Origin: Candidatus Gemmiger stercoravium
GTDB lineage: Bacteria; Bacillota; Clostridia; Oscillospirales; Ruminococcaceae
Length of the DNA stretch: 48,078 bases
Direction: 5' to 3'
Assembly (NCBI GenBank): GCA_019119835.1
Contig: DWWE01000046.1
Location: 1 to 48,078 of the forward strand
Shown piece by piece: positions 11,111-48,078 of this stretch (its first letter is position 1; every line of letters starts with the position of its first letter). The notes below the pieces were generated by a model. That model was given only the letters and a program-made list of their open reading frames with translations. It had not been told where the DNA came from and did not search any database. Position numbers and translations under genes: made by a program.

Positions 11111-12055
11111 TCAGCGCTCGGCCCGCATGGGGTTGTTCAAAAAGTCCTGGTAGGTCAGCCGGATGCCCTCCTCCAGCTCGGTCCTGTAGGTCCAGCCCAG
11201 GGCGGCGGCCTTGCTCACGTCCAGCAGCTTGCGGGGGGTGCCGTTGGGCTTGGTGGGGTCCCAGCGGATCTCGCCGGTGTAGCCCACCACCTTCGCCACC
11301 AGCTCGGTCAGCTCCCTGATGGTCAGCTCCTTGCCGGTGCCGGCGTTGACCGTCTCGTTGCCGGAATACCGGTTCATCAAAAACACGCAGAGGTTGGCCA
11401 GGTCGTCCACATACAGGAACTCCCGCAGCGGACTGCCGTCGCCCCAGCAGGTCACAAAGGGCAGGTTCTGCTCCTTCGCCTCATGGAACCGGCGGATCAG
11501 CGCCGGCAGCACATGGCTGTGGGTGGGGTGGTAGTTGTCGTTGGGGCCGTAGAGGTTGGTGGGCATCACGCTGATATAGTCGGTGCCGTACTGGCGGTTC
11601 AGGTACTCGCAGTATTTCAGCCCCGAGATCTTGGCCAGGGCGTAGGCTTCGTTGGTCTTTTCCAGCGCCGAGGTCAGCAGGCAGCTCTCCTTCATCGGCT
11701 GGGGGGCCATGCGGGGGTAGATGCAGGAGGAGCCCAGGAACTCCAGCTTCCTGCAGCCGTTCTGCCAGGCCGCGTGGATGACGTTCATCTCCAGGATCAT
11801 GTTGTCATACATGAAGTCGGCCAGCGCTTCGCTGTTGGCCTCGATGCCGCCCACCTTCGCCGCGGCCAGAAAGACATACTCGGGCTTTTCCTCGGCAAAA
11901 AAGCGTTCCACCGCCTCCTGCCGGCACAGGTCCAGCTCCTTGTGGGTGCGGGTGATGATGTTCGTGTACCCCTGGCGCTCCAGTTCCCGCAGGATGGCCG
12001 AGCCCACCATGCCCCGGTGGCCGGCCACATAAATCTTGGCATTTTTTTCCATCAT
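11111..12055 (-). CDS. fcl: GDP-L-fucose synthase
   Basis: Epimerises and reduces GDP-4-keto-6-deoxymannose to GDP-L-fucose using NADPH. The 314-residue short-chain dehydrogenase has the dinucleotide loop [10 protein letters not shown] near residues 11-20. The fcl-type motifs [28 protein letters not shown] (catalytic Ser and Cys109-type residue) and [10 protein letters not shown] (Y-x-x-x-K) are present. [13 protein letters not shown] and [14 protein letters not shown] follow. Two adjacent ATGs occur at 12055 and 12052; AGAAGG lies about 11 bases before. It is the middle gene, 49 bases after gmd and 22 before manC. Confidence 0.95.
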
Positions 12056-12103
12056 AGCGAAAAAACCTTCTCTCGTTCCATTCAAAATCCGGCAGTCGGC
12101 CGC

Positions 12104-13192
12104 TTATTTCACAACGCCTTTTTCCAGGTATTCCTCCAGGTTGCAGCGGATGCGCTCCTCGGCGCGCTCCACCGCCACCTTCTGCATGTCGTGCTCCACC
12201 ATGATCCGCACCAGTTCCTCAAAGCTGGTCTTGGTGGGGTTCCAGCCCAGCTGGGTGCGGGCCTTGGTGGGGTCGCCCCACAGGTTCACCACGTCGGTGA
12301 GGCGGTAAAAGTCGGGGCTGACCTCCACCAGCACCCGGCCGGTGGCCTTGTCGATGCCCTTTTCCTCCAGCCCTTCGCCCTCGAATTCCAGCTCGATGCC
12401 CGCATAGTGGAAGGCCAGCCGGCAGAAATCCCGCACGCTGTGCTGTACGCCGGTGGCGATCACAAAATCCTCCGGTTCCTTGTTCTGCAGGATCAGCCAC
12501 ATGCACTCCACATAATCCTTGGCATAGCCCCAGTCCCGCAGGCTGGACAGGTTGCCCAGGTACAGCTTGTCCTGCTTGCCCTGTTGGATGCGGGCGGCGG
12601 CCAGCGTGATCTTGCGGGTCACGAAGGTCTCGCCCCGCCGCTCGGACTCGTGGTTGAACAGGATGCCCGAACAGGCGAACATGCCGTAGGCTTCCCGGTA
12701 TTCCTTGGTGATCCAGAACCCGTACTGCTTGGCCACCGCGTAGGGGCTGTAGGGGTGGAAGGGGGTGTTCTCGTTCTGGGGCACCTCCTCCACCTTGCCG
12801 TACAGTTCGCTGGTGGATGCCTGGTAGATGCGGCAGGTCTTGGTCAGGCCGCACAGCCGCACGGCCTCCAGCACCCGCAGCACGCCGGTGGCGTCCACGT
12901 CGGCGGTGAACTCGGGCACATCGAAGCTGACCTGCACATGGCTCTGGGCGGCCAGGTTGTAGATCTCGTCCGGCCGCACGCTGCCGATGACCGAGAGCAG
13001 GCTCATCGAATCGCCCATGTCGCCGTAGTGCAGGTGGAAGCGGGGGTCGCCCTCCAGGTGGGCGATCCGCTCCCGGTAATCCACCGAGGAACGGCGGATG
13101 ATGCCGTGAACGTCGTAGCCTTTTTCCAGCAGGAACTCGGCCAGATAGCTGCCGTCCTGGCCGGTGATGCCGGTGATCAGTGCTTTTTTCAT
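12104..13192 (-). CDS. gmd: GDP-mannose 4,6-dehydratase
   Basis: Converts GDP-D-mannose to GDP-4-keto-6-deoxy-D-mannose, the committed step to GDP-L-fucose (also used for GDP-rhamnose). The 362-residue extended SDR protein begins [20 protein letters not shown] with the G-x-x-G-x-x-G loop, then [12 protein letters not shown]. It contains the active-site Thr/Glu region [12 protein letters not shown] and Y-x-x-x-K in [12 protein letters not shown]. The [11 protein letters not shown] segment is diagnostic of Gmd. AAAGGAG precedes the ATG. It is the first gene of the operon, with a promoter overlapping that of the divergent AraC gene. Confidence 0.96.
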
Positions 13193-13305
13193 TCGGGAAC
13201 TCCTTTTGCGGTTTTTACGGTTTTCGCCGCCGCCCGGCGGGCCGGGGGCGGGGTCATGCACATTCTTGCAAAGCGGCGGGCGGCTGCCGGCGGACGGCAG
13301 GGCCC

Positions 13306-33749: not shown

Positions 33750-33754
33750 ATTTT

Positions 33755-33830
33755 TGGTGCGCCCGCAGGAACTCGAATCCTGGACCCTCTGATTAAAAGT
33801 CAGATGCTCTACCAACTGAGCTACGGGCAC
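33755..33830 (-). tRNA. tRNA-Lys (anticodon TTT)
   Basis: A 76-base tRNA. Acceptor GTGCCCG (5' end at 33830) pairs with CGGGCGC, followed by A and an encoded CCA. D-arm GCTCAGTTGGTAGAGC, anticodon stem CTGA/TCAG with loop CTTTTAA, variable AGGGTC and T-arm CAGGATTCGAGTTCCTG. Anticodon TTT decodes AAA/AAG. Own promoter and terminator; the gene lies just downstream of thrS on the same strand. Confidence 0.96.
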
Positions 33831-33860
33831 AAAAGCAAGCTGCCTTACAACAGCTTACCT

Positions 33861-33889
33861 ATTATAGCAGGCGCACATGGTTTTGTCAA
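33861..33889 (-). promoter_or_regulatory. Consensus promoter of tRNA-Lys
   Basis: On the minus strand TTGACA (complement of 33884-33889), exactly 17 bases, TATAAT (complement of 33861-33866): a perfect match to the sigma-A consensus, 17 bases after the thrS stop. Confidence 0.9.
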
Positions 33890-33905
33890 GATGATTTTTC
33901 CCGTT

Positions 33906-35687: not shown

Positions 35688-35744
35688 ACAGGTTCCCTCC
35701 AATCAAAAGGTGCGCGGGTGGCGGGCGGATGGTCCGCCGCAGAT

Positions 35745-36006
35745 GAAAAAATGCCCCACCCCGCCTGACAGCGGGATGAAGCATTCGACATACTCCACGG
35801 TTCCACCCGGATTGGGCGCACAGACGGCGCCCCACTCAAACTGGCTGTAACGGGCCGCCCGGCGGGGGTTCGCCCCCGCGCTCTGCGGTGGTAGCACAAA
35901 CGCCGGCAGCCCCGGGCCGCTTGCAGCACGCCGTCAGGCGGCGGCCTTCTCTGAAGGGGACGGAGGATGTGCTGTGTCCGCATCAACGCTTTTGCGGGAT
36001 GAGATC
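35745..36006 (-). promoter_or_regulatory. T-box riboswitch upstream of thrS
   Basis: On the minus strand the leader carries the canonical T-box GGGTGGAACCGTGGA (complement of 35794-35808), which pairs with the antiterminator. The terminator helix is at 35751-35784, ATGCTTCATCCCGC with GCGGGGTGGGGCAT, a continuous 14-bp stem counting G-T pairs, followed by six T residues (35745-35750). Further upstream a long structured region with CAGAGAAGG fits Stem I. A candidate threonine specifier ACC lies in GTGCTACCACCGC near 35885-35897. Uncharged tRNA-Thr should stabilise the antiterminator and switch thrS on. Confidence 0.88.
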
Positions 36007-36012
36007 CTCTTT

Positions 36013-36041
36013 ACTATACCCATCCCGGCGGGAAAAGTCAA
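36013..36041 (-). promoter_or_regulatory. Promoter of the T-box-thrS transcript
   Basis: On the minus strand TTGACT (complement of 36036-36041), a 17-base spacer and TATAGT (complement of 36013-36018). It predicts a leader of roughly 320 bases. Confidence 0.8.
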
Positions 36042-36124
36042 GGGGACGGGGAAATTTTCCCGCCGGACGGCTTCGGCCGGAGGGCGCCGGTCCCCCGCAG
36101 CCCGAAGGAAGCCGGGCCCGGCGC

Positions 36125-36153
36125 TGGAAAAAGACAGAAGGATATGATATAAT
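36125..36153 (+). promoter_or_regulatory. Promoter of the surface glycan operon
   Basis: TGGAAA (36125-36130) and a perfect TATAAT (36148-36153), 17-base spacing. It stands 37 bases before the first glycosyltransferase and is back-to-back with the thrS promoter. Confidence 0.6.
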
Positions 36154-36189
36154 CAAAAAGATTATAAAATGGGAAAGAAGGCGCACTGT

Positions 36190-37410
36190 ATGGGGCGGGA
36201 CAAACCGACGATTCTGCTGGTACACTGCCATTACCGCCTGCCCGGCGGCGAGGACGTGGTTTTTGCCGCCGAACGGGCGATGCTGGAGCGCCGCGGCCAC
36301 CGGGTGGTGGTGTACGAGCGCAGCAACGAGGAACCCGGCCTGGCCGCCAGGGCCCTGATGCCGCTGCGGGCGGTGTTCAGCCTGAAAGCCTGGCGGGAGG
36401 TCCGCGCCCTGATCCGCAGCGAGGGGGTGGACCTGGTCCATGTCCACAACACACTGTTCGCGGTGAGCCCTTCGGTGTTCTGGGCGGCCCGCAGCGAGAA
36501 GGTGCCGGTGGTGCAGACGCTGCACAACTTCCGGCTGTTCTGCCCGGCGGGGGTGCTGCTGCGGGACGGCCGGGTCTGTGAGGACTGCCCCCGCCAGCCC
36601 GGCGGGCTGCTCTGCGCGGTGCGCCATGCCTGCTACCGGCAAAGCCGGCTGCAGAGCGCGGTCTGTGCGGGCATCTACGCCTTCCACCGGCTGCTGCGCA
36701 CCTACCGCCGGGTGGACCTGATCGCCCTGACCGACTTTGACCGGGAGAAGCTGCTGGACTTCAACGCCCGCCGGCGGGTCTTTGACCCGCGGCGGCTGTG
36801 GGTCAAACCCAACGCCCTGAGCGCGGACCGGCCCCTGCCGCCGCTGCAGCCGCTGCAGGGGCGGAAAAACCAGGTGGTGTTCGTGGGCCGGCTGGAAGAG
36901 CTGAAGGGGCTGCGCACGGCGGTGGAGGCCTGGCGGCTGCTGGAAGGCGACCCGGCCGCCCCCGAACTGCTGCTGGTGGGCAGCGGCCCGCTGGAAGACT
37001 GGGTACGCCGGCAGGGGGTGGCCCGGGTCCGGCTTTTGGGGCGGCTGCCCCGCGAACGGCTCTACCCGCTGCTGGCCGAAAGCCGTGCGGCGCTGGCCCC
37101 GAGCCTGTGTTATGAAAGTTTCGCCCTGGTCCCCGCCGAGGCCCACGCCATGGGGACCCCGGTGCTGGCCAGCGACCTGGGGAATGTGGGGGCGATGGTG
37201 CGCCCCGGGGTGGACGGGCTGCGGTTCACCCCCGGCGACCCGGCCGCCCTGGCGGCGGCCGTGCGGGCGCTGCCCGGCCTGGAAGCCGCCGCCGACCCGG
37301 CCGCCATGCGCGCCGAAGCACTGGACCGCTTCGGCGAAGAGAAAAACTATGCCCAGCTGCTGGCGATCTACCGGCGGATGCTGGCCGGTGATGAAGGAGC
37401 CGATTCATGA
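36190..37410 (+). CDS. GT4-type glycosyltransferase
   Basis: A 406-residue retaining GT-B transferase, predicted to act on a nucleotide sugar at the inner membrane face. N-terminal half: TILLVHCHYRLPGGEDVVFA (G-G-E loop) and DLVHVHNTLFAVSPSV, then LHNFRLFCPAGVLLRDGRVC with the extra C-x-D-C pair seen in a subgroup of GT4 enzymes. C-terminal Rossmann half: VVFVGRLEELKGL, LLLVGSGPLEDWV, and the nucleotide-sugar E-x-x-x-x-x-x-x-E (ESFALVPAEAHAMGTPVLAS). AGAAGG lies eight bases before the chosen ATG; an in-frame ATG at 36169 has none. It is the first gene of the operon, overlapping the next by four bases. Confidence 0.9.
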   Translation: MGRDKPTILLVHCHYRLPGGEDVVFAAERAMLERRGHRVVVYERSNEEPGLAARALMPLRAVFSLKAWREVRALIRSEGVDLVHVHNTLFAVSPSVFWAARSEKVPVVQTLHNFRLFCPAGVLLRDGRVCEDCPRQPGGLLCAVRHACYRQSRLQSAVCAGIYAFHRLLRTYRRVDLIALTDFDREKLLDFNARRRVFDPRRLWVKPNALSADRPLPPLQPLQGRKNQVVFVGRLEELKGLRTAVEAWRLLEGDPAAPELLLVGSGPLEDWVRRQGVARVRLLGRLPRERLYPLLAESRAALAPSLCYESFALVPAEAHAMGTPVLASDLGNVGAMVRPGVDGLRFTPGDPAALAAAVRALPGLEAAADPAAMRAEALDRFGEEKNYAQLLAIYRRMLAGDEGADS

Positions 37411-38336
37411 ACCAACTGTACCGCCTGCTGCACACGCCGCCGGCCAGCCTGCTCAAAACGCTGGCCGGCTGGAAGGAGACCTACGCCATCGCCCTGCGCC
37501 CGGTGCCTACCGCCCCCGGCTGCGACCCGCTGCCCGCGCTGGGCCAGGGGCGGTATACCTGCCTGCCCGGCACGCCCGGGCACTGGTACACCGACCCGCA
37601 GCTGTTTGCGCGGGCGGGGGAGCGCTGGCTGTTCTTTGAGGACTTTGACCTGGCGGCGAACAAGGGCGCCATCGCGGCGCTGCCGCTTCCGGTGGACGGC
37701 CGGCCCGGCGAACCCCGCACCCTGCTGCAGGGGGAAAGCCACCTCACCTTTCCCACCGTGTTTGAATGGAACGGCGAGGTCTGGCTGATCCCCGGCACCG
37801 GCGAGGACCGCACCCTCTGCCTCTACCGCTGCCGCCGCTTCCCCGACGACTGGGAGCTTGTGCGCGCCTTCCCGGTGGGGATGGAGCTGGCCGGCACCAT
37901 CCTGCTGGACGCCGCGCCCGAAGCGATGACCCTGCTGTCCGCCCAGAGACAGCCGGAGGGCGGCCCCGCGGCCCGGCTGCGCCGGTTCACCCTGCGCCCC
38001 GACCCGGCCGCCGAGGGCGGGTTCGCCCTGGAGGAGGACGAGCCCTTCGGGCTGGAACACCGGGCCTATGGCCTGGATGTCTGCAATGCCGGGCCGCTTT
38101 TTTGCTGGGGCGGGCAGCAGATCCGCCCGGCCCGGGGCGGCACCCGGGCGCAGGAGGATGCCTACCTGCAGTTCTGGGCGCGGCGGGACGGCCGGGAGAC
38201 CCCGCTGTGCGCGGCCACGCCCCGCAACATCGAGGTGGAGGGGGTGGACCCCTCGGCGCTGCTCGGCATCCGGAGCTACTGCCGGGACGAGCAGCTGGAG
38301 GTGCTGGGCATCCGCTGTCTGGCGCGGCCGCGCTGA
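37407..38336 (+). CDS. GINT1 N-terminal-like beta-propeller protein of a glycan locus
   Basis: A 309-residue protein resembling the beta-propeller (glycosyl-hydrolase-43-like) domain found N-terminal to glucosamine inositolphosphorylceramide transferases and alone in bacterial polysaccharide clusters. Recognisable repeats are HWYTDPQLFARAGERWLFFE, the SHLTFPTVFEWNGEVWLIPG strand pair, and ELAGTILLDAAPEAMTLL. It has no transferase domain and no signal peptide. Position between two GT4 genes, with a four-base overlap upstream and a 21-base gap downstream, ties it to glycan assembly. It may be a glycan-binding or modifying partner; the activity is unknown. Confidence 0.72.
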   Translation: MNQLYRLLHTPPASLLKTLAGWKETYAIALRPVPTAPGCDPLPALGQGRYTCLPGTPGHWYTDPQLFARAGERWLFFEDFDLAANKGAIAALPLPVDGRPGEPRTLLQGESHLTFPTVFEWNGEVWLIPGTGEDRTLCLYRCRRFPDDWELVRAFPVGMELAGTILLDAAPEAMTLLSAQRQPEGGPAARLRRFTLRPDPAAEGGFALEEDEPFGLEHRAYGLDVCNAGPLFCWGGQQIRPARGGTRAQEDAYLQFWARRDGRETPLCAATPRNIEVEGVDPSALLGIRSYCRDEQLEVLGIRCLARPR

Positions 38337-38357
38337 CAGCCAAAAGGAGGAAAAACC

Positions 38358-39494
38358 ATGCGTACCATTGCGATCCCCCGCCTGTACTGCGGCGCATCCG
38401 GCCAGCGGGGCGCCTACAACCGGCAGGAGGTGGGCCTGGCCCGTGCCTTTGCGGAGCTGGGCTGCCGTGTGCTGGTGCTGTACCCGGCCGTGGGGGCCCA
38501 TACCGTCGAGACCGAGACCCCGGCCCCCGGCGTCAAGGTGCTGTACCTGCCGGCCCGGGCGCTGCGGGGCAATGCGTTTTACAAAAGCTGGCAGGTCCTG
38601 CTGGACGAAAAGGTGGATGCGGTCCACCTGATGTCGGACAACGCGCTGGCGGTGCCGGGGCTGTACCGGTTCTGCCGCCGGCACGGCATTTTTCTGTACA
38701 ATGTGGTGGGGGTGACCCGCTCCCGGTCGGACAGTGCGGCCATCCGGCTGGTGATGGACCTGCTGGGCCGGCGCAACCGGGCCGTCTACCGGCGCACCCC
38801 CACCTACGCCAAGACCGCCGCGGTGGCCGGGGAACTGCAGGCCATGGGGGTGCCCTGCGCCGGTGTGCTGCTGGTGGGGCTGGACACCGCCATCATCCCC
38901 CAAGTCACCGAGACCCGCGCCGCCCTGCGGGCCCGGCTGGGGCTGGACCCGGCGGCCCGCTACCTGCTGTTTGTCGGCCGGCTGGACCCCTACAAGCGGC
39001 CGCTGGATGTGGCCGGGGTGCTGGCGGCGCTGCCGGCGGACTGGCAGGCGGTGGTCATCGGCCAGGGCAGCCTGACCGAAGAACTGCGCCGCGCCATGGA
39101 GGCCGCCGGCCTGGACGGGCGCTGGCGGCACATCCCCAAACTTCCCAACGAGGAAGTGCAGCTGTACTACCATGCCTGCGATGTCTTTCTCAACTGCAAC
39201 GACCAGGAGATCTTCGGCATGAGCCTGCTGGAAGCCATGTACGCCGGCTGCACACCGGTGGCCCGGCGGGCCCCCGGCCCCGACGAGATCATTGAGGACG
39301 GGGTCAGCGGATTTCTTGTGCCCCCGGCCCCCGGCGACACCGCGGCGCTGGCCGCCGCCGTGGAGAAGGCCGCCGCCGACCCGGCCATGGCCCGGGCGGC
39401 CGAGACACGCATCCGGGAGCATTTCCTCTGGCGAAACAGCGCCGAAAAAGCCCTGCAGATGCTGCGGGAGAAGGGGGTGGGGACCGATGGATAA
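38358..39494 (+). CDS. GT4-type glycosyltransferase
   Basis: A 378-residue GT-B transferase. It starts with TIAIPRLYCGASGQRGAYNR and GLARAFAELGCRVLVLYPA. The C-terminal half has YLLFVGRLDPYKRPLDVAGV, VVIGQGSLTEELR and QEIFGMSLLEAMYAGCTPVA, the nucleotide-binding E-x-x-x-x-x-x-x-E motif (here Glu-Ile-Phe-Gly-Met-Ser-Leu-Leu-Glu). AAGGAGG precedes the ATG. The end overlaps the next gene by eight bases. The mature sugar linkage cannot be read from sequence. Confidence 0.9.
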   Translation: MRTIAIPRLYCGASGQRGAYNRQEVGLARAFAELGCRVLVLYPAVGAHTVETETPAPGVKVLYLPARALRGNAFYKSWQVLLDEKVDAVHLMSDNALAVPGLYRFCRRHGIFLYNVVGVTRSRSDSAAIRLVMDLLGRRNRAVYRRTPTYAKTAAVAGELQAMGVPCAGVLLVGLDTAIIPQVTETRAALRARLGLDPAARYLLFVGRLDPYKRPLDVAGVLAALPADWQAVVIGQGSLTEELRRAMEAAGLDGRWRHIPKLPNEEVQLYYHACDVFLNCNDQEIFGMSLLEAMYAGCTPVARRAPGPDEIIEDGVSGFLVPPAPGDTAALAAAVEKAAADPAMARAAETRIREHFLWRNSAEKALQMLREKGVGTDG

Positions 39495-40395
39495 CGATGC
39501 CAAGTGGAAAAACCTGGCCCGCAACCTTTACAAAGGGGCGCGGTTCGGCTGGAAATACCGGGGCGTGCCGATCCTATCGGCCCAGGCGGGCAACGACCTG
39601 GCAGCCGAATGGCTGCGGCAGGGCCGGGCTTTCTGTTTCGGCCGCTGCGGCGCCACCGAAATGCGCACCGCCGCCGAGTACCTGCGCCCCGGCGGCCAGC
39701 CCTTCGGGGAGACGGTGCGGCGGGAGATCCGGGACCTGTCCGGCGTTTTCCCCACCGACGACGAGACGCTGCGCCGATTCTGCGAGCTGTACATCGACTG
39801 CGCCCACCGTGCCGACCTGCTGGCGCTGTGGGATGTGGGGGCCGAGCGGGCGGTGATCCGCGGCTGCCGGGACACGCAGTTCACCCGGCTGCGGGCGCTG
39901 GAACCCTACTACCATCCCCATCCCTGGAGCGCCGCGCTGGCGGGCCGGCGGGTGCTGGTGGTCCACCCCTTCCGGGACACCATCCTGCGCCAGTATGCCC
40001 GGCGGGAACAGCTCTTCCCCGGCAGCGAGGTGCTGCCGGCCTTCGCCTCCCTCACCGTCGTGCAGGCGGTGCAGGGGCTGGGCGGCCAGCAGACCGGCTA
40101 TGCTTCCTGGTTTGACGCGCTGGCCGACATGCAGCGCCGGATGGACGCGGCGGACTACGAGGTGGCCGTCATCGGGGCGGGGGCCTACGGCCTGCCGCTG
40201 GCCGTCCACGCCCGGGACACCGGCCATGCCGCGATCCAGATGAGCGGCGCCACCCAGCTTTTGTTCGGCATACGGGGCCGCCGGTGGGACACCCACCCCC
40301 AGATCAGCCGGCTGTACAACGACGCCTGGGTCCGCCCGGCCGAAAACGAGGGCATCGCCCGCCGGGACGCGGTGGAGGGCGGAAGTTACTGGTAG
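39487..40395 (+). CDS. Glycan-locus protein of unknown activity (GT-D-like)
   Basis: A 302-residue soluble protein. Visible pieces are FCFGRCGATEMRTAAEYLRP near residues 50-69, SGVFPTDDETLRRFCELYID, GRRVLVVHPFRDTIL and a C-terminal block VAVIGAGAYGLPLAVHARD followed by QMSGATQLLFGIRGRRW. This pattern recurs in hypothetical proteins of capsule clusters. The R-x-G-x-x-E segment is reminiscent of the GT-D fold transferases (DUF1792), which use an acidic motif there; that link is inference. It overlaps the preceding GT4 by eight bases and precedes another GT4 by 19. Transferase is the most likely activity, not proven. Confidence 0.6.
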   Translation: MDNDAKWKNLARNLYKGARFGWKYRGVPILSAQAGNDLAAEWLRQGRAFCFGRCGATEMRTAAEYLRPGGQPFGETVRREIRDLSGVFPTDDETLRRFCELYIDCAHRADLLALWDVGAERAVIRGCRDTQFTRLRALEPYYHPHPWSAALAGRRVLVVHPFRDTILRQYARREQLFPGSEVLPAFASLTVVQAVQGLGGQQTGYASWFDALADMQRRMDAADYEVAVIGAGAYGLPLAVHARDTGHAAIQMSGATQLLFGIRGRRWDTHPQISRLYNDAWVRPAENEGIARRDAVEGGSYW

Positions 40396-40414
40396 ACCGA
40401 AAGGGAAGTCCGTT

Positions 40415-41521
40415 ATGAAGATTTTGATGATCAGCAACCACCTGGGCGTCCAGAGCGGGGTGCAGCGCTATGCGCAGAACCTGCTGCTGAACATGGACCT
40501 GACCCGCTACCGGGTCGATCTGTTCGTGGGGCGCTGCCCGCCGGACCAGGCGTCCTCGGCGCCGCCGCTGGAGGCGGCCGGCGTGCGGATCTTTGCGGTG
40601 CCGGACAACAAAAAGGACCGCACCCGGGCGCTGTGGCGGCACCTGCGCACCCACCGGGATTACGACATCATCCACTACCACACAGCCAGCAAGATCGGGG
40701 CGCTGACCTGCGTGATGATCCGCGCCCTGTGCCCCAAGGCCCGGCTCATTGTACACAGCCACATCGTCTACCCGCCCATCACGCTGGCCTGGCATGTGGC
40801 CCACCGGCTCTACCAGGCCACGGCGGATTACTTCCTGGGCTGCGGGCTGGCCGCCGGGCGGTTCGTGTTCGGCAGCCGCATCGACCGGAAGCCCAACTTC
40901 GCCGTGGCCTGCAATGCGGTGGACCGCAGCCGCTTCCACCCGGATGCAGACGCCCGTGCCCGCATCCGGGCACAGTACGGCATCGCCGACAGCGACCGGC
41001 TGGCCGGCTTCGTGGGGCGGCTCAACCACCAGAAAAACCCGCTGTTTCTGCTGCAGGTCTTCGGGGCGCTGGCCAAGGCGGACCCGGCCTGGAAGCTGCT
41101 GCTGGTGGGCACCGGCGAGATGGAAGCCGAGATGCGCCGGACGGTGCAGCAGCAGGGGCTGGAGACCAGGGTGTTGTTTGCCGGCGTGCAGACCGACGTG
41201 CCCGCCTACATGAATGCCTTCGACCTGTTTTTGCTGCCCAGCAACTTCGAGGGCAGCCCGGTCACGCTGGTGGAGGCCCAGGGCTGCGGGGTGCCCTGCC
41301 TGACCAGCACCAACGTGCCGGACGACGGCGCCGTGACCGAGCTGGTCCACTTCCTGCCGCTGTCCGCCCCGCTGAGCCGCTGGGCGGACACGGCCCGGGC
41401 CATTGCCGGGCAGGGCCCCCACGCCGACCACTGGGACCGGCTGACCGCCGCCGGCTATGAGCAGCGGGACGCCGCCCGGCGGATGGAACGCCTTTACGAC
41501 GAATTGGCAGGTGGAAGATGA
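40415..41521 (+). CDS. GT4-type glycosyltransferase (EpsF-like)
   Basis: A 368-residue GT-B transferase. N-terminus KILMISNHLGVQSGVQRYAQ has the G-G/S-G-V-x-R loop typical of EpsF/EpsD-like enzymes; YDIIHYHTASKIGAL and LIVHSHIVYPP follow. C-terminal half has GFVGRLNHQKNPLFLLQVF, LLLVGTGEMEAEM and NFEGSPVTLVEAQGCGVPC with the E-x-x-x-x-x-x-x-E core. GAAAGGGAA precedes the ATG. It overlaps the fucosyltransferase by four bases (ATGA), so the two are likely made in step and may act in sequence. Confidence 0.92.
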   Translation: MKILMISNHLGVQSGVQRYAQNLLLNMDLTRYRVDLFVGRCPPDQASSAPPLEAAGVRIFAVPDNKKDRTRALWRHLRTHRDYDIIHYHTASKIGALTCVMIRALCPKARLIVHSHIVYPPITLAWHVAHRLYQATADYFLGCGLAAGRFVFGSRIDRKPNFAVACNAVDRSRFHPDADARARIRAQYGIADSDRLAGFVGRLNHQKNPLFLLQVFGALAKADPAWKLLLVGTGEMEAEMRRTVQQQGLETRVLFAGVQTDVPAYMNAFDLFLLPSNFEGSPVTLVEAQGCGVPCLTSTNVPDDGAVTELVHFLPLSAPLSRWADTARAIAGQGPHADHWDRLTAAGYEQRDAARRMERLYDELAGGR

Positions 41522-42444
41522 TTTACGCAGAACTTGCCGGCGGGCTCGGCAACCAGATGTTTGTCTATGCCTTCGGGCGGGCGCTGGCCCTGCAGGGCGG
41601 GGAGGAACTGACCCTGCTGGACCGGCGGGACTGGCAGGCCGGCGCGCCCGCCCACACCGCCTGCGCCCTCACCGCGCTGTCGCTGCCCGCCGGGGTGCGC
41701 ATCCTGACCGAGCCGCAGTACGCCAAACGGCATCTGCCCCGGCAGAACCTGGCCAAGACACTGATGATCAAGGCCGAACAGCGCGGCGGCATGATGGCCC
41801 GGGACTGGCACGGCTTCGAAGCCCGCATGGCCCCGCTGCTCAACCTGGCAGGGCTGCACTTTGTCACCGACGGGTATGTGCCGGTGCGCCGGGGCCCGGC
41901 CCGGGACTTTTTGTGCTGGGGCTATTTCCAGAGCCCCCGGTATTTTGCCGGCGCCGAGGCGGCGATCCGCCGGGAACTGCGCAGCCCGGCCCCGCCGGCG
42001 GGGCCGCTGGCCGAAGAGATCCGGGCGGCGGCCCACCCGGTCTGCGTCCACCTGCGCCGGGGGGATTACCAGGCCCCCGAAAACGCGATCTTCCAGGTCT
42101 GCACGCCGGCCTACTACGCCGCCGCGGTGGCCGCCGCCGCCCGCACCTGGCCGGACGCCCGGCTGTTCGTATTCAGCGACGACCCGGACTGGGCCCGCGC
42201 CCACCTGCAGACCGGCGGCCTGCCGGCGACCTACGCCCCCCGCGGGTCGGCCGCCGGGGACCTGGCCCTGATGCAGCTGTGCCGGGGGTTTGTGATGAGC
42301 AATTCCACCTACAGCTGGTGGGCCCAGTACCTGGCCCCGGCCCAGGACAAGCGGGTGTGGGCGCCCGACCGCTGGTACGCCCACACCAAACAAACCGACC
42401 TCTACCTGCCGGATTGGCAGAAAATCCCCACCCAGCCGGCCTGA
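41518..42444 (+). CDS. Alpha-1,2-fucosyltransferase, family GT11
   Basis: Transfers L-fucose from GDP-fucose to a beta-galactose (or similar) acceptor through an alpha-1,2 bond, giving an H-type unit. The 308-residue GT-B protein has the family start MIYAELAGGLGNQMFVYAFG, the diagnostic H-x-R-R-x-D motif at residues 178-183 (VCVHLRRGDYQ) and SNSTYSWWAQYL at about 261-272. DLALMQLCRGFVMSN lies between. The donor can be provided by gmd-fcl-manC 28 kb upstream. It has no membrane segment, as usual for bacterial GT11. The overlap with the preceding GT4 and proximity to GT6 point to a shared repeat unit. Confidence 0.93.
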   Translation: MIYAELAGGLGNQMFVYAFGRALALQGGEELTLLDRRDWQAGAPAHTACALTALSLPAGVRILTEPQYAKRHLPRQNLAKTLMIKAEQRGGMMARDWHGFEARMAPLLNLAGLHFVTDGYVPVRRGPARDFLCWGYFQSPRYFAGAEAAIRRELRSPAPPAGPLAEEIRAAAHPVCVHLRRGDYQAPENAIFQVCTPAYYAAAVAAAARTWPDARLFVFSDDPDWARAHLQTGGLPATYAPRGSAAGDLALMQLCRGFVMSNSTYSWWAQYLAPAQDKRVWAPDRWYAHTKQTDLYLPDWQKIPTQPA

Positions 42445-42471
42445 GCGCGGCTGCCGCAGAAAGGAACGATC

Positions 42472-43998
42472 TTGAGAAGCAAACGCACCCTCATCAACAT
42501 CGCCTACGCGCTGGGCACCAGCCTGCTGTTGCTGCTGCTGGGGCTGGCCACCCGCCGCCTCATGGTCTTCAACTTCGGCGACGGCATCGCCCAGGCCACC
42601 GGCGTGGTGGAAAAACTGTTCAACTTCTTCTCCATCGCCGAGTTCGGGGTGGGCAGCGTCATCAGCTACCGGCTGTATGAGCAGATCGCCGCCCGGGACC
42701 ACGAAAAGATCAGCAAGTACATGTCCATGTACAAGTGGGCCTACCGGGCGGTGGGGCTGCTGATCTGCCTGCTGGCCCTGGCGGGGGCGGCGGCCCTGCC
42801 CTGGATCATGCCCGGCGCCGACATGCAGGCCGCCTGCACCGTCTACGGGCTGCACGCGCTGTCCACCCTGTCCAGCTACTTCCTGGTCACCCGGCGGCTG
42901 ATGTACACCTGCACCCAGCAGGGGTATGTCTGCACCCGCATCGACTTCCTGTTCAACGTGGCCACCTACCTGGCCCGCATCGGCATCGCCCTGTGGTGGC
43001 CCAACTATGTGCTGTATTTCGGCGTCACCATCCTCATGAACACCGCCGCCAACCTGGTGGTGGCCTGGCGTTTCCGGCGGGATTTCCCCTATGTGCGGGA
43101 TGTCCGGGTCACGCTGGACGACTTCCGCAGCCTGGGGATCTTCCACGACCTGCGGTACTACCTGGTCCACCGGCTCTCCAACACGATCTACGGCTCCTCC
43201 GACACCATCGTCACCTCCCGCATGGGGGGCGCGGCCCTCACCACCAACCTGGGCAACTACACCTCCATCGCCGACAGCGCCACCAACATCGGCAACAAGA
43301 TCATGGACAGCTTCTCGGCGGGCATCGGCAACATCGTCTACGACAAGGAGGCCGGCCGCAACGACCACGACAAGCAGGTCTTCTGGGGGCTGGACCTGTT
43401 CAGCTACCTCTTTGCCAGCTTTGTGGCCACCGCCTACTTCTGCCTGTTCCAGCCCTTCATGACGCTGTGGATGGGCGCCGACCGGCTGCTGCCCTTCGCC
43501 TTCCTTCTTTTGTTCTGCCTCAATGAGTATGTGGGCTGGAACCACCGGATGCTGGGGTCCTACCGCGCCGTGCTGGGCCATTTCGAGCAGGACCAGTGGT
43601 TCATGGTGGCTTCGGCGGCCGTCAACCTGATCCTCAGCTTCGCGCTGTTCCCGGCGTTCGACATCACCGGCGCGCTGGCCGCCACCGTGGCGGCCCACTG
43701 CATCATGTGGGCGGGGCGTATCGTGGTGGTGTTCCGGCAGTATATGCGGGGCAGCATGGGCCATTACCTGTGCATGCAGGCGCTGCACGCCGTCACGCTG
43801 GCGGCCTGCATGGGGCTGACCTGGGCGGCCTGCAGGGCCGTGCCCCTGGGCGGCTGGCTGGGCCTGGCGCCGCGGGCCGTCATCGTCTGCCTGCTGCCCA
43901 ACCTGCTGAACCTGGCGTTTTACGGCTGGAGCAGCGACGCCGCCTACCTGCGGGAATATGCGGCGCGCATCGTACGGAAAAGGAGGGACCGCACATGA
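42472..43998 (+). CDS. Wzx-like polysaccharide flippase (PST/MATE-type)
   Basis: A 508-residue membrane protein with about 12-14 helices, starting TLINIAYALGTSLLLLLLGL and VFNFGDGIAQATG. It fits the polysaccharide transporter (PST) branch of the MOP superfamily that flips lipid-linked repeat units across the membrane. Loops such as GSSDTIVTSRMGGAALTTNL correspond to the family's conserved SDTIVIS-type segment. The start is TTG 42472, with AAAGGA six bases before. It overlaps the GT6 gene by four bases. It implies a Wzx/Wzy-like assembly; the likely polymerase or ligase is the GT-C type protein encoded two genes on, or lies outside. Confidence 0.88.
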   Translation: MRSKRTLINIAYALGTSLLLLLLGLATRRLMVFNFGDGIAQATGVVEKLFNFFSIAEFGVGSVISYRLYEQIAARDHEKISKYMSMYKWAYRAVGLLICLLALAGAAALPWIMPGADMQAACTVYGLHALSTLSSYFLVTRRLMYTCTQQGYVCTRIDFLFNVATYLARIGIALWWPNYVLYFGVTILMNTAANLVVAWRFRRDFPYVRDVRVTLDDFRSLGIFHDLRYYLVHRLSNTIYGSSDTIVTSRMGGAALTTNLGNYTSIADSATNIGNKIMDSFSAGIGNIVYDKEAGRNDHDKQVFWGLDLFSYLFASFVATAYFCLFQPFMTLWMGADRLLPFAFLLLFCLNEYVGWNHRMLGSYRAVLGHFEQDQWFMVASAAVNLILSFALFPAFDITGALAATVAAHCIMWAGRIVVVFRQYMRGSMGHYLCMQALHAVTLAACMGLTWAACRAVPLGGWLGLAPRAVIVCLLPNLLNLAFYGWSSDAAYLREYAARIVRKRRDRT

Positions 43999-44834
43999 AC
44001 CGAACGCCGCGCGTGGCGGTGCTGTATCTGTGCACCGGCGCCTACCGGGTGTTCTGGCATGACTTCTACCCCAATTTCAAGGAACATTTTCTGCCGGACT
44101 GCGAACGCACCTTCTTTGTCTTTACCGACGCGCCGGACCTTGCCTATACGGACCGGCCCGATGTGCGGCGCATCGAACAGCAGGCCCTGCCCTGGCCCTA
44201 CAGTACGATGCAGCGGTTCGACGCTTTTCTGGGGCAGGCGGAAACACTGGCCGGGTACGACTACCTGTTTTTTGCCAACGCCAACCTGCGCTGCCTGCGG
44301 GATGTGACGGCGGCGGAACTGCTGCCCGATGCCGCCGGGGGCCGGGACCTGACGGTGGTCTGCCACCTGCCCTACTATGGCAAAAACCCGATCTTCCACC
44401 CCTATGAGCGGCGCCGCAAAAGCCGGGCGTGCATCCCCTACAACTGCGGGACCTGGTATGTGGCGGGGGGCCTCAACGGCGGGCAGAGCGCCGCCTACCT
44501 GGAACTGTGCCGGGAACTCAAAGCCCGCACCGACGAGGACCTGCGGCGGGGCGTCATCGCCCGCTTCCATGACGAAAGCCAGCTCAACCGGCTGGTGGCC
44601 GAGCAGCCCGGGCGGTTCCGGGTGCTGGGCCCGGACTACTGCACCCCCGAGGAGACCCCCACCGGCAGGGAGGCCGTCCGGGTATTGCAGAAATCGCACT
44701 ATATCGACATGCGTTCGGTCAGGGGGCCGGTCCGGCGGCAGAACTGCCTGCAGCGCAAGTGGGGGGCGTTCTGCGAAAACTGGCTGCCCTACCTGTGGTG
44801 GGCGCGGGACGCCCTGCTGCGGCGCAGTGTTTAG
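43995..44834 (+). CDS. Family GT6 glycosyltransferase (ABO blood-group-like, NXN type)
   Basis: A 279-residue single-domain retaining GT-A enzyme. Matches to vertebrate ABO transferases run the length of the domain: RTFFVFTDAPD (VFTDQP in human), WPYSTMQRFDAF, YDYLFFANANLRC, YERRRKSRACIPYNCGTWYV and FHDESQLNRLV (HDESHLN in human). The metal-binding D-x-D is replaced by Asn95-Ala-Asn97, as in bacterial GT6 enzymes such as Bacteroides ovatus BoGT6a, which is metal independent and transfers GalNAc to Fuc-alpha-1,2-Gal. HDES begins at His192. At the A/B-deciding site it has Ala and Gly (266/268 numbering) rather than Leu/Gly or Met/Ala, so donor choice is open. Confidence 0.92.
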   Translation: MNRTPRVAVLYLCTGAYRVFWHDFYPNFKEHFLPDCERTFFVFTDAPDLAYTDRPDVRRIEQQALPWPYSTMQRFDAFLGQAETLAGYDYLFFANANLRCLRDVTAAELLPDAAGGRDLTVVCHLPYYGKNPIFHPYERRRKSRACIPYNCGTWYVAGGLNGGQSAAYLELCRELKARTDEDLRRGVIARFHDESQLNRLVAEQPGRFRVLGPDYCTPEETPTGREAVRVLQKSHYIDMRSVRGPVRRQNCLQRKWGAFCENWLPYLWWARDALLRRSV

Positions 44835-44858
44835 AGCGGATGGAAAGGAGACGGCGTT

Positions 44859-46589
44859 TTGCAGTTGACAAAAAATGAGCGGGCGGTGCAGGGCAGTCTG
44901 GCCGTACTGGCCCTGGTGTGCGCCGCCGTGCTGGTGCGCACGGCGCTGACCGGGCTGGAGATCGACGAACCCTACGCGCTGGCCCTGGGGTACCGGCTGG
45001 TCAGCGGCGACCGCCTGTTTGCCTCCATGTGGGAGCCACACCAGCTTTCCGCCCTGCCTTCCGCCGCGCTGATGGCCCTTTACCTGGGCCTGACGGGCAC
45101 CACCACCGGCGTGCTGCTCTTCTTCCGGGCGGTGGCGCTGGCGTGCAAGGCGGCCCTGAGCTGGGCCTTTTACCGGGAATTCCGCCGCGACCTGGGGCCG
45201 GCGGGGGCCGGTCTGGCGGCGCTGGTGCTGGCGCTTTACACCCCCAAGTGGTTCCTGGGGCCGGACTACACCGGCCAGCAGTTCCATTTTACGCTGGCGG
45301 CCTTCCTCTGCCTGCACCACTATGTGACCCGCGGGTTCCGCCGCCCCTGGCTGGTGGTGCTGGGGGCGGTGTGCGCCTGCTTCGGCTTCCTGGCATTCCC
45401 CCAGAGCGCTGCGGCCTTCGCGGTGCTGTGGCCCGGTATGTTCCTGCTGGGCCGCCGGGGCGGCGAACCGCGCTTTGCCGGGGTGCCGCGGGGCGCGTGG
45501 CTGCTGCTGGGCACCTGCGCGGTCTGCGGCGGGGCGTTCCTGGCCTGGGCGCTGCAGGGCATGGGGTTCGACCTGGCCGCGTTTCTCGAACGCGTGCAGC
45601 TGATCCTCCACGACCCGCAGTATGATTTCACCGCGGCCGAGCGTCTGGCCCAGCTGGGGCAGCAGGCGCTGCCGGTGCTGCGCGGCCTGCTGTGGCCGCT
45701 GCTGGCCGCAGGGGCGTTCTGCCTTGCGGTGCGTCTGCGGCGGGGCGCCGTGCCCGGCGGCGCGGGGCTGTTCCTGGGCCTCTGGGGGCTGCTGGCCGTT
45801 ATGCAGTGCGCCCTGCGCGCCGTGCGGGATGGCAGCCTGGATGAGCGGCAGTTCCTGCCGGTGCTGGTGCTGGCCGGGGCCTGGGGCTTCTGGCGCGCCC
45901 GGCGGCAGCCCGGGGCGGCGGCGCTGTTCTGGCTGGGATACCTGACGGGGCTGGCGGCCTACGCCTTTATCCTGCGTTCCACGCTGGTGGGGCTGCCCGC
46001 CACCTTCATGTACCTGACCTGGCCGGCGGTGTGCGGCGTGATGATGCTGGCGGGCGCGGACCACCGCCTCCTGCGCTGGCTGGGCGGGGCGCTGCTGGCG
46101 GCGGTGCTGCTGTTCCTGGCGGTCTGCCGGGTCTGGTGCGTCCAGGTCACCGGCTGGAAGCCCGCCACCGTGGCCGATACCCCGCTGGTGCAGATCGAAC
46201 ACGGTCCGGCCAAAGGCATTTGGGCCGACGAAAAAGCCGCCGATATGCAGGAATGTCTCTACGAGGCGCTGCAGCCCTTTGCAGGGCAGGCGGTGCTGCA
46301 GGCCATCGGGGAACAGAACGGCCTGGGCTTCCTCATGGCCGACGGCACGCTGACGGTGGCCCAGGCGTCGGTGATCTCGGGCACCGACAGCGACCCGCGC
46401 TTTACGCTGTACTACACGCTGCTGCCGGAAAAACTGCCCGCCGTGGTCCTGTACGACGACGCCGAAGTGCGGGACATGGACGCCTTCCATGCCTGGATCG
46501 AGGAAAACTTTGCCGTTACCGGCCGCCATACCGTCACCCACGGCACGGCCAGCCTGCAGGTGCTGACCATCGGCGGCTGGGCCGGGTGA
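44859..46589 (+). CDS. GT-C fold membrane glycosyltransferase (PMT/ArnT-like)
   Basis: A 576-residue protein with about ten membrane helices over residues 12-430 and a C-terminal soluble domain of about 145 residues. The first extracytoplasmic loop has IDEPYALALGYRLVSGDRLF, matching the catalytic D-E motif of the GT-C / ArnT-PMT superfamily, then WEPHQLSALPSAALMALYLG. Such enzymes use lipid-phosphate sugars at the outer face of the membrane. It could modify the exported glycan or act in place of a Wzy polymerase. The start is TTG 44859, behind AAAGGAG. A hairpin follows the gene. Confidence 0.78.
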   Translation: MQLTKNERAVQGSLAVLALVCAAVLVRTALTGLEIDEPYALALGYRLVSGDRLFASMWEPHQLSALPSAALMALYLGLTGTTTGVLLFFRAVALACKAALSWAFYREFRRDLGPAGAGLAALVLALYTPKWFLGPDYTGQQFHFTLAAFLCLHHYVTRGFRRPWLVVLGAVCACFGFLAFPQSAAAFAVLWPGMFLLGRRGGEPRFAGVPRGAWLLLGTCAVCGGAFLAWALQGMGFDLAAFLERVQLILHDPQYDFTAAERLAQLGQQALPVLRGLLWPLLAAGAFCLAVRLRRGAVPGGAGLFLGLWGLLAVMQCALRAVRDGSLDERQFLPVLVLAGAWGFWRARRQPGAAALFWLGYLTGLAAYAFILRSTLVGLPATFMYLTWPAVCGVMMLAGADHRLLRWLGGALLAAVLLFLAVCRVWCVQVTGWKPATVADTPLVQIEHGPAKGIWADEKAADMQECLYEALQPFAGQAVLQAIGEQNGLGFLMADGTLTVAQASVISGTDSDPRFTLYYTLLPEKLPAVVLYDDAEVRDMDAFHAWIEENFAVTGRHTVTHGTASLQVLTIGGWAG

Positions 46590-46591
46590 CC

Positions 46592-46624
46592 CGCCGCGCC
46601 CCGTTGCGGGCGGCGCTGTTTTGT
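46592..46624 (+). terminator. Weak intrinsic terminator inside the glycan cluster
   Basis: CGCCGCGCCC and GGGCGGCG form a stem with a small bulge, followed by CTGTTTTGTG. It sits in the only gap longer than 30 bases in the cluster and may reduce read-through to the last two genes. Confidence 0.4.
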
Positions 46625-46683
46625 GCTATTGTTACTATAAGAACCGGCTCGCCCTGCGCCTGCCGCCAAAGGAGCTTTCACCG

Positions 46684-47478
46684 ATGGAAAAACTGCTGGT
46701 ATTTATCCCCGCCTACAACTGCGAAAAACAGGTGCCCCGCGTCCTGACCCAACTGCTGGACCCCCGGGTGGCCCCGTGGGTGGGGGCGTGCATCGTGGTC
46801 AACAACCGTTCTGCCGACGGCACCGAAGCCGCCGTGCAGGACTGGCGCCGCCGCCACCCCGAAGCGCCGGTGCATCTGCTGCGCAACGACCAGAACTACG
46901 GCCTGGGCGGCAGCCATAAGGTGGCTTTCGGCTACGCGGCGGCCCACGGGTACGGGCATCTGGTGGTGCTCCACGGGGACGACCAGGGAGCCATCGCCGA
47001 CCTGCTGCCCATCCTGGAGAGCGGCGCCTACAAACAGTACGACTGCTGCCTGGGTTCCCGTTTCATGAAAGGCAGCCGCATCAAGGGCTACAGCGCGCTG
47101 CGGGTGGTGGGCAACCACGGCTTCAACGCCCTGTTCAGCCTGGTGGCCCGCCGCCGCATCACCGACCTGGGCAGCGGGCTCAATCTCTACGCCGTGGCCC
47201 CGCTCAAAAACGGGTATTACAAAAAATTCCCCGATACGCTGTATTTCAACGACTGCATGATCCTGGCGCTCTGCCAGATGAAGCAGAAGGTCCTGTTTTT
47301 CCCCATCAGCTGGCGGGAGGAGGACCAGGTCAGCAACAACAAGCTCACCAGCTTCGGCGTCAGCCTGCTCAAGCTCTGCGGGCGGTATCTGCGCGGGCCC
47401 CGGGCTTTCGTCGAGCGGGAATGGCGCAGCAAGATCATCGACGACTATACCTACACCGAGATCCCGGTGCAGCAGTAA
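46684..47478 (+). CDS. GT2-type glycosyltransferase
   Basis: A 264-residue GT-A transferase of the dolichyl-phosphate mannose synthase-like kind. LVFIPAYNCEKQVPRVLTQL opens the Rossmann-like fold; VVNNRSADGTEAAV, NDQNYGLGGSHKVAFGYA and the acidic metal site LVVLHGDDQG follow (H-G-D-D), then GSRF and DLGSGLNLYAV. WREEDQVSN provides the C-terminal E-D pair. No trailing membrane helices, so it is soluble or peripheral. It may make the polyprenyl-phosphate sugar used by the GT-C enzyme. AAAGGAG lies ten bases before the ATG, and the epimerase gene follows 12 bases on. Confidence 0.9.
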   Translation: MEKLLVFIPAYNCEKQVPRVLTQLLDPRVAPWVGACIVVNNRSADGTEAAVQDWRRRHPEAPVHLLRNDQNYGLGGSHKVAFGYAAAHGYGHLVVLHGDDQGAIADLLPILESGAYKQYDCCLGSRFMKGSRIKGYSALRVVGNHGFNALFSLVARRRITDLGSGLNLYAVAPLKNGYYKKFPDTLYFNDCMILALCQMKQKVLFFPISWREEDQVSNNKLTSFGVSLLKLCGRYLRGPRAFVEREWRSKIIDDYTYTEIPVQQ

Positions 47479-47490
47479 GGAGGTATCCCT

Positions 47491-48078
47491 ATGAAGGTTC
47501 TGGTAACGGGCGCGGCCGGGTTTATCGGCGGCCAGCTGTGGCATGCGCTGTGGAAGCGCGGCGATGCGGTCGTGGGCATCGACAATTTTTCCTACGGCAA
47601 TCTGGACAACCTGAAATTCGAGGACCACGACTTCGGCCCCGAGGTGCGCCGCATGGACATCCGGGACCGGGAGGCCATCCCCGCCCTGTTCGAACAGGAA
47701 AAGTTCGACGTGGTCTACAACATTGCGGGTATCGCGCCGCTGCCCGACTGCCAGAGCGACCCCGTGCAGGCCGTGGAGGTCAACACGCTGGGCCTGGTGC
47801 ATCTGCTGGAATGCGCCCGCCGCACCGGCGTGCGCCAGCTGGTGCAGGCTTCCACCAACGCCATGTATGAGAACGAGACCGAGTTCCCCACCGTGGAGGA
47901 CCGCTTTGCCCCGCCCACGCTGATCTACCCCAACACCAAGTACTGCGGCGAGCGTTTCTGCCAGAGTTTTGCCGATACCTACGGCATGACAGTCACCTGC
48001 CTGCGCTTTGCCAACGTCTACGGCCCCCACATCGACTGCCTGCGCAAGCAGCCGCCGTTCGTGGGCTACATGATCCGG
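47491..48078 (+). CDS. NAD-dependent epimerase/dehydratase (3' end outside window)
   Basis: The first 196 codons of an extended SDR enzyme, cut off by the window end. It starts MKVLVTGAAGFIGGQLWHAL with the G-x-x-G-x-x-G NAD loop, then VVGIDNFSYGNLDNL. DVVYNIAGIAPLPDCQSDP and QASTNAMYEN provide the catalytic Ser/Thr area, and YPNTKYCGERFCQSF the Y-x-x-x-K. RFANVYGP is the family signature. The sequence resembles UDP-glucose/GlcNAc 4-epimerases and UDP-glucuronate epimerases; the exact substrate is not clear. AAGGAGG precedes the ATG. It probably provides a nucleotide sugar (for example UDP-GalNAc or UDP-Gal) for this locus. Confidence 0.88.
   Translation, partial: MKVLVTGAAGFIGGQLWHALWKRGDAVVGIDNFSYGNLDNLKFEDHDFGPEVRRMDIRDREAIPALFEQEKFDVVYNIAGIAPLPDCQSDPVQAVEVNTLGLVHLLECARRTGVRQLVQASTNAMYENETEFPTVEDRFAPPTLIYPNTKYCGERFCQSFADTYGMTVTCLRFANVYGPHIDCLRKQPPFVGYMIR

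Follow-up and report, generated by a model that had tools for sequence, protein, structure and literature searches.

A Gemmiger operon pairing GT11 and GT6 glycosyltransferases, and the ABO-like glycan cap it may build

Does a gut bacterium of the Bacillota carry what it needs to cap a surface glycan in the manner of human ABO blood-group sugars? The question is raised by an operon in the window, the 48,078-nt stretch of DNA analysed here, whose host, described beforehand as a Gram-positive gut bacterium, is of the genus Gemmiger. This sugar-coat cluster holds both enzyme families behind the human ABO blood-group sugars, GT11 and GT6. The reading we favor, with moderate confidence, is that the operon makes a lipid-linked surface oligosaccharide in which GT11 would fucosylate beta-Gal, GT6 would add an A-like cap, probably GalNAc, and a MOP flippase would export the product. 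We infer the order in which the enzymes act, the donor, the linkage, and the structure of the cap, as well as its export and its location at the surface.

Strong profile scores and near full-length alignments rule out chance or misannotation of the genes (Table 1). The preliminary description listed GT11, a Wzx-like flippase, and GT6 as consecutive, overlapping genes of one operon. All three are present on the plus strand within it, and the flippase and GT6 genes overlap by 4 nt, as do GT4c and GT11, but GT11 and the flippase are separated by 27 nt. The promoter-like site lies 15 nt upstream of the operon's first start codon, the ATG at 36169, and three such matches were seen in the region versus 1.1 expected from shuffles. 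A phase-variable promoter was considered and rejected: three inverted repeat pairs lie near the operon start, none of them flanking the promoter-like site. A tRNA-Lys was the only RNA element seen in 33000-48078. The eleven-gene order is not common to all Gemmiger loci, some of which lack genes downstream of GT6.

Table 1. Features of the glycan operon and of the GDP-fucose genes in the window
Feature	Coordinates	Strand	Evidence
manC, mannose-1-phosphate guanylyltransferase-like	9764..11089	-	PF00483 and PF01050; TIGR01479 191.2 bits (cut-off 372.95)
fcl, GDP-L-fucose synthase	11111..12085	-	NF047922 478.3 bits, slightly under cut-off of 500
gmd, GDP-mannose 4,6-dehydratase	12104..13261	-	TIGR01472 517.6 bits, above cut-off of 415
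Promoter-like site, TGGAAA-17-TATAAT, extended -10	36125..36153	+	Consensus match only
Operon	36169..48078 (contig end)	+	Tightly spaced genes
GT4a, GT4 glycosyltransferase	36169..37410	+	PF13692 95.4 bits
GINT1_N-like protein	37407..38336	+	PF24793 42.1 bits
GT4b, GT4 glycosyltransferase	38358..39494	+	PF00534 102 bits
Possible GT-D-like glycosyltransferase	39487..40395	+	No profile match itself; ortholog in related locus L077, PF22882 20.4 bits, under cut-off of 27
GT4c, GT4 glycosyltransferase	40415..41521	+	PF00534 88.5 bits
GT11 fucosyltransferase	41518..42444	+	PF01531 90.6 bits; HLRRGD 178-183
27-nt gap, site of a GT2 gene in 27/28 fetched Gemmiger loci	42445..42471		Locus comparison
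MOP-superfamily flippase, Wzx/MurJ fold	42472..43998	+	Predicted structure
GT6 (ABO-family), type I allele	43995..44834	+	PF03414; NAN 95-97, A157-G158-G159, E194, K233
GT-C-like membrane glycosyltransferase, tentative	44859..46589	+	Best structure match 3waj, E 1.3e-4, TM 0.35
GT2, distantly dolichyl-phosphate mannose synthase-like	46684..47478	+	5mlz, E 4.4e-4
NAD-dependent sugar-nucleotide epimerase/dehydratase, truncated by contig end	47491..48078	+	L077 ortholog

The GT11 protein scores well above the PF01531 cut-off (23.9 bits), and its HxRRGD family motif lies exactly at the residues reported earlier. A PDB sequence search with this protein returned nothing up to E 1. It is a putative alpha-1,2-fucosyltransferase acting on Gal; the family also contains an alpha1,3 enzyme, HhFT2, according to PMC4202792. 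GDP-fucose enzymes had likewise been placed in the window, and manC, fcl, and gmd were identified there, about 28 kb from GT11 and outside the operon. The Gmd and Fcl pair for GDP-L-fucose synthesis is present. Across Gemmiger, an Fcl-like match (>170 bits) was found in 27/30 genomes with GT11 versus 0/5 without it (Fisher p 1.7e-4); a true Fcl is missing in three of the GT11 genomes.

GT6 exceeds the Pfam family cut-off (63.2 versus 25 bits) and falls under that of NCBIfam NF041524 (225.6 versus 250 bits), which marks it as a divergent family member. The NAN motif noted earlier was confirmed (N95-A96-N97), and NXN in place of DXD places the protein with the bacterial, metal-independent GT6 type; both Asn are kept in 40/40 rows of the GT6 alignment and in every row of the residue count. 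E194 corresponds to the catalytic Glu (E192) of BoGT6a from Bacteroides ovatus. K233, invariant in the 40 alignment rows, was paired with BoGT6a Lys231 by position near the C-terminus, without a full BoGT6a alignment. Twelve of 15 BoGT6a positions (ligand contacts, NXN motif, and catalytic Glu) are conserved. The W189 equivalent is Phe, with Trp in 39/39 GT11-linked GT6 proteins outside Gemmiger, and the T134 equivalent is Pro, a residue shared by 21 of those 39.

Whether the enzyme is of A or B type is a residue-based guess, leaning to A, since its triad (A157-G158-G159) is that of BoGT6a, a UDP-GalNAc enzyme. Specificity positions follow the human GTA numbering (233, 234, 235, 245, 266, 268, 300, and 303). 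The 266 and 235 equivalents in the window enzyme, Ala and Pro, differ from those of GTA, and donor positions vary widely among bacterial GT6. Together with E. coli O86 WbnI, which makes B (PMC4202792), these differences leave a modest chance that the cap is galactose (B-like) or another sugar, but the shared triad and a 268-position Gly conserved in 29/29 Gemmiger locus enzymes speak for GalNAc.

The acceptor can be approached through gene linkage. We identified GT6 in 29/35 Gemmiger genomes and GT11 in 30/35. All 29 GT6 genomes carry GT11, on the same contig in 28 and 1.6-3.5 kb away; in the remaining genome (G317) each gene is close to a contig end. In the one genome with GT11 and no GT6 (G307), the contig stops within the flippase. 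No flippase match was found in the five Gemmiger genomes lacking GT11. Outside the genus, 39/54 GT6 loci include a GT11 gene no more than 10 kb away, compared with any GT11 in 11/328 other Bacillota genomes, and two proteins (L173 and L192) combine GT6 and GT11 in a single chain. The fetched flanks of the other 15 outside loci contain no GT11; several of these are limited by contig ends and some have full flanks, including both Helicobacter loci (L145 and L159). The preliminary description had named Fuc-alpha1,2-Gal as the likely acceptor and proposed checking co-occurrence across genomes. The acceptor is supported by GT11-GT6 linkage, seen both inside Gemmiger and between phyla, by the fusions, and by the Fcl co-occurrence: GT6 probably caps the Fuc-alpha1,2-Gal that GT11 would make. 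More broadly, the cross-phylum linkage and fusions argue for fucosylated galactose as a common acceptor among bacterial GT6.

GT6 and GT11 might instead act on separate residues, with an unfucosylated GT6 acceptor and no H-, A-, or B-like branch. Both main alleles do carry acceptor-pocket substitutions (in type II, the type at L077, Gln stands in for H122; in type I, W189 is replaced by Phe, Cys, or His), and nine further Gemmiger GT6 loci, including an orphan copy in the window genome, have no GT11; three of these were scanned, and in each the GT6 gene comes after those for an ABC-2 permease and an ATPase. The adjacency in 39/54 loci across phyla and the two fusions run against such separate action, which we consider unlikely.

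For export, the preliminary description had called on a Wzx-like flippase, and the fold of the predicted model agrees, while Wzx sequence profiles gave no match. Neither the window protein nor its L077 counterpart matched a Pfam or NCBIfam family. The AlphaFold2 model (mean pLDDT 84.9) resembles MurJ (7waw; TM 0.72 by query and 0.73 by target, Foldseek E 2.6e-7) and WzxE (9g9n; TM 0.61 by query and 0.73 by target, Foldseek E 3.3e-5), and the product is thus predicted to be a MOP-fold flippase of the Wzx/MurJ type. No polymerase or ligase was identified, and no Wzy was assigned; on the Wzy question, the 44859-46589 product appears GT-C-like, at a low TM (0.35).

Under the capped-oligosaccharide reading, the GT4 enzymes, with a GT2 that is absent here and present in relatives, would build a chain with terminal beta-Gal. 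Of these two families, GT4 works with retention and GT2 with inversion. The manC-gmd-fcl products would supply GDP-fucose, from which GT11 would add Fuc-alpha1,2 to the chain; GT6 would then complete the A-like cap by attaching a sugar, probably GalNAc, in alpha1,3 linkage. The MOP flippase would export the glycan, which may then undergo modification or transfer by the GT-C enzyme on the outside. The GT2 gene lies between GT11 and the flippase in 27/28 fetched Gemmiger relatives, and among the 39 GT11-linked loci outside the genus, GT2 is fused to GT11 in three and within 200 nt of it in 22. That its loss removed the acceptor and stranded GT11 and GT6 in this strain seems improbable: the closest remaining match to that GT2 in this genome reaches only 42% identity, but GT11, flippase, and GT6 are full-length, tightly spaced open frames, and another locus without the GT2 (L084) keeps all three, with three downstream genes also gone.

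The GT6 slot itself varies. At least three alleles occur in Gemmiger, two of them interleaved across species, and in three close pairs GT6 is 51-52% identical versus 79-97% for the rest of the flanking genes; the exception is the GT-C gene, which diverged along with GT6. A thrS test was run within one thrS lineage, thrS being deeply split. Judging from these comparisons, GT6 alleles appear to have been swapped between Gemmiger species. We tentatively suggest an ABO-like polymorphism, possible though short of probable: a locus fixed for H building, with ancient last-step GT6 alleles that recombination would have moved from species to species (in the compared pairs, along with the GT-C gene), so that near relatives would differ in the cap they show on a shared core, perhaps as a result of immune or phage selection. 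Such swapped alleles would be a bacterial counterpart to ABO polymorphism.

No earlier paper on a Gemmiger GT11-GT6 locus was found in openly licensed PMC text. What appears new is the near genus-wide GT11-GT6 locus in a Bacillota genus and its multi-allele GT6 slot with two alleles interleaved across species. A near-universal locus of this kind in a Bacillota gut genus is a directly testable candidate source. The logic of capping after GT11 already has precedents in E. coli O86 and B. ovatus. The O86 genes for GT11 and GT6 presumably share one cluster. That system, likened to the window by its enzyme families, differs in being a Gram-negative O antigen of B type; there, a GT11 alpha1,2-fucosyltransferase and the GT6 enzyme WbnI yield H and then B structures (PMC4202792). 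BoGT6a (PDB 4AYJ, 4CJ8) transfers GalNAc onto 2'-fucosyllactose, as described in PMC3961637, and is identical to the window GT6 at 83/212 aligned residues, with the NAN motif, AGG triad, catalytic Glu, and C-terminal Lys in common. Between the two, N69 is changed to S, T134 to P136, W189 to F191, and P123-G124 to L-P; T134 and W189 line the BoGT6a ligand pocket, and the window enzyme differs at both. It is also longer (279 residues versus 246 in the BoGT6a crystal chain) and its host belongs to the Bacillota; the 2014 view, in PMC3961637, was that bacterial GT6 came from Gram-negative species with a single exception. The human ABO transferases GTA and GTB are GT6 enzymes that match the window protein at about 50 bits, with the His233 and Glu303 equivalents kept, but they are metal-dependent type II membrane proteins with DXD where the window enzyme has NXN (PMC3961637).

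Two of the components that the preliminary description assigned to the window operon, a GT11 fucosyltransferase and an ABO-family GT6, were identified by profile matches (listed in the table with the coordinates of all features). For the third, a Wzx-like flippase, a family profile search returned no match, though the predicted model has a fold resembling those of MurJ and WzxE. The GDP-fucose genes manC, fcl and gmd also lie within the window, as had been claimed, on the strand opposite to the operon. Because the window is the whole of contig C117 (assembly size 2.36 Mb), the locus may continue beyond 48078; in L077, a fetched Gemmiger locus, the epimerase gene is followed by a nucleotidyltransferase-like gene.

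Coordinates of features in the window (no prefix) and in other fetched loci (L-numbers)
Feature	Location	Strand	Remarks
manC, fcl, gmd	9764-13261	-	GDP-fucose genes
thrS	33906-35702
Eleven-gene run	36169-48078	+	Intergenic gaps -8 to 94 nt
GT11	41518-42444	+	PF01531 90.6 bits; motif HLRRGD, residues 178-183
Flippase	42472-43998	+	Predicted model, MurJ- and WzxE-like fold
GT6	43995-44834	+	PF03414 63.2 bits; NF041524 225.6 bits, slightly below the 250-bit cut-off
Orphan type II GT6	L106:10851-11684		Window genome, contig C47
ABC-2 permease, ATPase, second GT6 paralog	L107:9465-12466; L110:9325-12314; L112:3093-6119		Gemmiger, three loci scanned
GT6 then GT11, single protein	L173:1223-2803		Magasanikbacteria; both domains over Pfam cut-off
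GT6 then GT11, single protein	L192:9413-11587		Hoeflea; both domains over Pfam cut-off
GT2-GT11 fusion proteins	L142:8187-10013; L144:8241-10001; L174:5583-7670		In GT6 loci
GT6 proteins with ~300 extra C-terminal residues	L150:10001-11593; L155:9998-11575		Nomurabacteria; no Pfam match in the extra residues

The closest named relatives of the window genome are Gemmiger, members of the Bacillota, apparently from gut samples of chicken, rabbit and others; a few records within the same group are named Subdoligranulum or Faecalibacterium. GT11 was found in 30 and GT6 in 29 of the 35 Gemmiger genomes searched. All 29 genomes with GT6 have GT11; in 28 the two genes share a contig and are separated by 1.6-3.5 kb. 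In the other (G317), the genes are on two contigs, each close to a contig end. A GTDB family sample yielded GT6 in 6/297 genomes and GT11 in 14/297, and a phylum sample GT6 in 1/329 (the window's own) and GT11 in 12/329. Among 30 fetched Gemmiger stretches, GT4c (the GT4 gene preceding GT11), GT11, flippase and GT6 are co-present in 27 and the complete eleven-gene set in 17, with contig ends accounting for part of the shortfall. L075 lacks the four genes preceding GT4c, L083 the last two operon genes, and L084, L098, L100, L101 and L102 the GT-C, GT2 and epimerase genes, despite >7 kb of downstream sequence. Since tail genes are absent from several loci, the constant part is the GT11-to-GT6 block. 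The locus is genuine, and its setting in Gemmiger is unexpected and near-universal.

No Gemmiger genome (0/35) reached the Fcl model cut-off of 500 bits; 27 have a match above 170 bits (next lower score, 70), 26 of these exceeding 470 bits and one being a 117-position fragment at 170.8 bits. Such matches occur in 27/30 genomes with GT11 versus 0/5 without (p 1.7e-4, a guide only because related genomes are not independent). The three GT11 genomes lacking one (G298, G299 and G323) are 82-93% complete. The five GT11-less genomes, none with a flippase match, are 71-99% complete, and their gene absences may be due in part to missing contigs.

The new feature is the apparent swapping of ABO-family gene alleles between species, which was not found in the openly licensed PMC text searched. 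Three types of locus GT6 were distinguished: I (9 rows, including the window), II (15) and III (4). Each occupies one side of a branch (support 100/100, 100/99 and 99/98) in a tree built without L102, from the split G317 locus. In the thrS tree, type III is one clade and types I and II are interleaved. A single clade for type I on the wider thrS tree gave p 9e-7, a value heavily weighted by G325, which belongs to a deep, separate thrS lineage; this tree omits G297, G307, G310, G312, G317 and G323, whose thrS was fragmentary or whose locus was split or not returned, and keeps the partial rows G298 and G316. When the test was confined to a single thrS lineage (16 rows; 6 of type I, 8 of type II), one clade was rejected (lnL 223.6 lower, p-AU 3.5e-36), and concatenation of five locus genes gave the same outcome (15 rows, p 6.6e-6). 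The starred branches of the lineage tree and those of the five-gene tree each require four or more changes. In three close type I/II pairs, hand-picked from the trees, GT6 is 51-52%, the GT-C gene 56-60% and other genes 79-97% identical; thus GT6, in these pairs together with GT-C, was most likely exchanged. The window GT-C protein is 98% identical to that of L097 (type I), 68-75% to six type II loci (L077-L080, L085, L086), 56-61% to five other type I loci and 50-55% to the remaining type II loci. Being closer to the six type II loci than to the five of type I, it indicates that the two genes are not always inherited as a pair.

Gemmiger thrS itself forms two deeply split lineages; for rows included in the tree, identity to the window is 61-66% in one and 88-93% in the other, a hint that thrS has been replaced through transfer. 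Besides the type I GT6 of its main locus, the window genome carries an orphan type II GT6 (81% to L075/L082) at a distance of ~0.6 kb from a tRNA-Lys. None of the genes beside this copy belongs to the window locus, and it may represent a relic, a mobile copy or assembly contamination. In the three loci scanned, a second Gemmiger GT6 paralog follows an ABC-2 permease and ATPase; its 266-268 triad is CGG in all eight copies read, and GT11 was absent from the 16-20 kb fetched around each.

Between GT11 and flippase, 27 of the 28 fetched Gemmiger loci holding both genes have a GT2 ortholog in a 1.0-1.9 kb gap, with 59-100% identity to one of the three GT2 copies used as queries. It was not found there in L084 or the window, and the best other GT2 match in the window genome is only 42% identical. 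Should this GT2 be the enzyme that forms the Gal acceptor, the glycan of the window strain may be altered or absent.

A scan with a GT6 alignment, extending beyond Gemmiger, gave 131 confirmed loci. Among the best 80, GT11 was detected within fetched flanks at 61, using a profile built in this analysis, and at 39 of the 54 non-Gemmiger loci, which are not a random draw and for which the GT11 background rate comes from Bacillota alone, so that a binomial probability for this linkage serves as illustration only. The 39 span Bacteroidota, Bacillota, Pseudomonadota and others; contig ends cut several of the 15 without GT11. Pfam confirmed GT11 in all six checked (L138, L142, L144, L173, L174 and L192). 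GT6 and GT11 are joined in single proteins of two loci, and GT2 and GT11 in three; in 22 further loci of the 39, no more than 200 nt separate a GT2 gene from GT11, an uncontrolled count, GT2 being commonplace in such loci. These fusions and the proximity of GT2 to GT11 suggest that GT2, GT11 and GT6 work in sequence, in which GT2 would add beta-Gal, GT11 fucose and GT6 the cap. Two Nomurabacteria GT6 proteins are extended at the C terminus.

At position 268 (human GTA numbering), Gly is kept in all 29 Gemmiger locus GT6 enzymes. Position 233 is His in 39/39 GT11-linked non-Gemmiger GT6 and 14/15 of the others, whereas all 15 enzymes of type II have Gln there. Position 300 is Trp in 39/39 and 12/15, respectively; the nine enzymes of type I, including the window's, carry Phe, Cys or His instead. 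Given these changed residues, acceptor preference may be shifted in Gemmiger. In GT11, HWRCGDY replaces HxRRGDY in 7/29 Gemmiger orthologs, with loss of the second Arg.

Blood-group-like capping by a GT11-GT6 pair is already known. The window GT6 matches the Bacteroides ovatus enzyme BoGT6a at 83/212 aligned positions and shares its donor triad, AGG. It keeps 12 of the 15 listed BoGT6a positions, and differs where N69, T134 and W189 are replaced by S70, P136 and F191.
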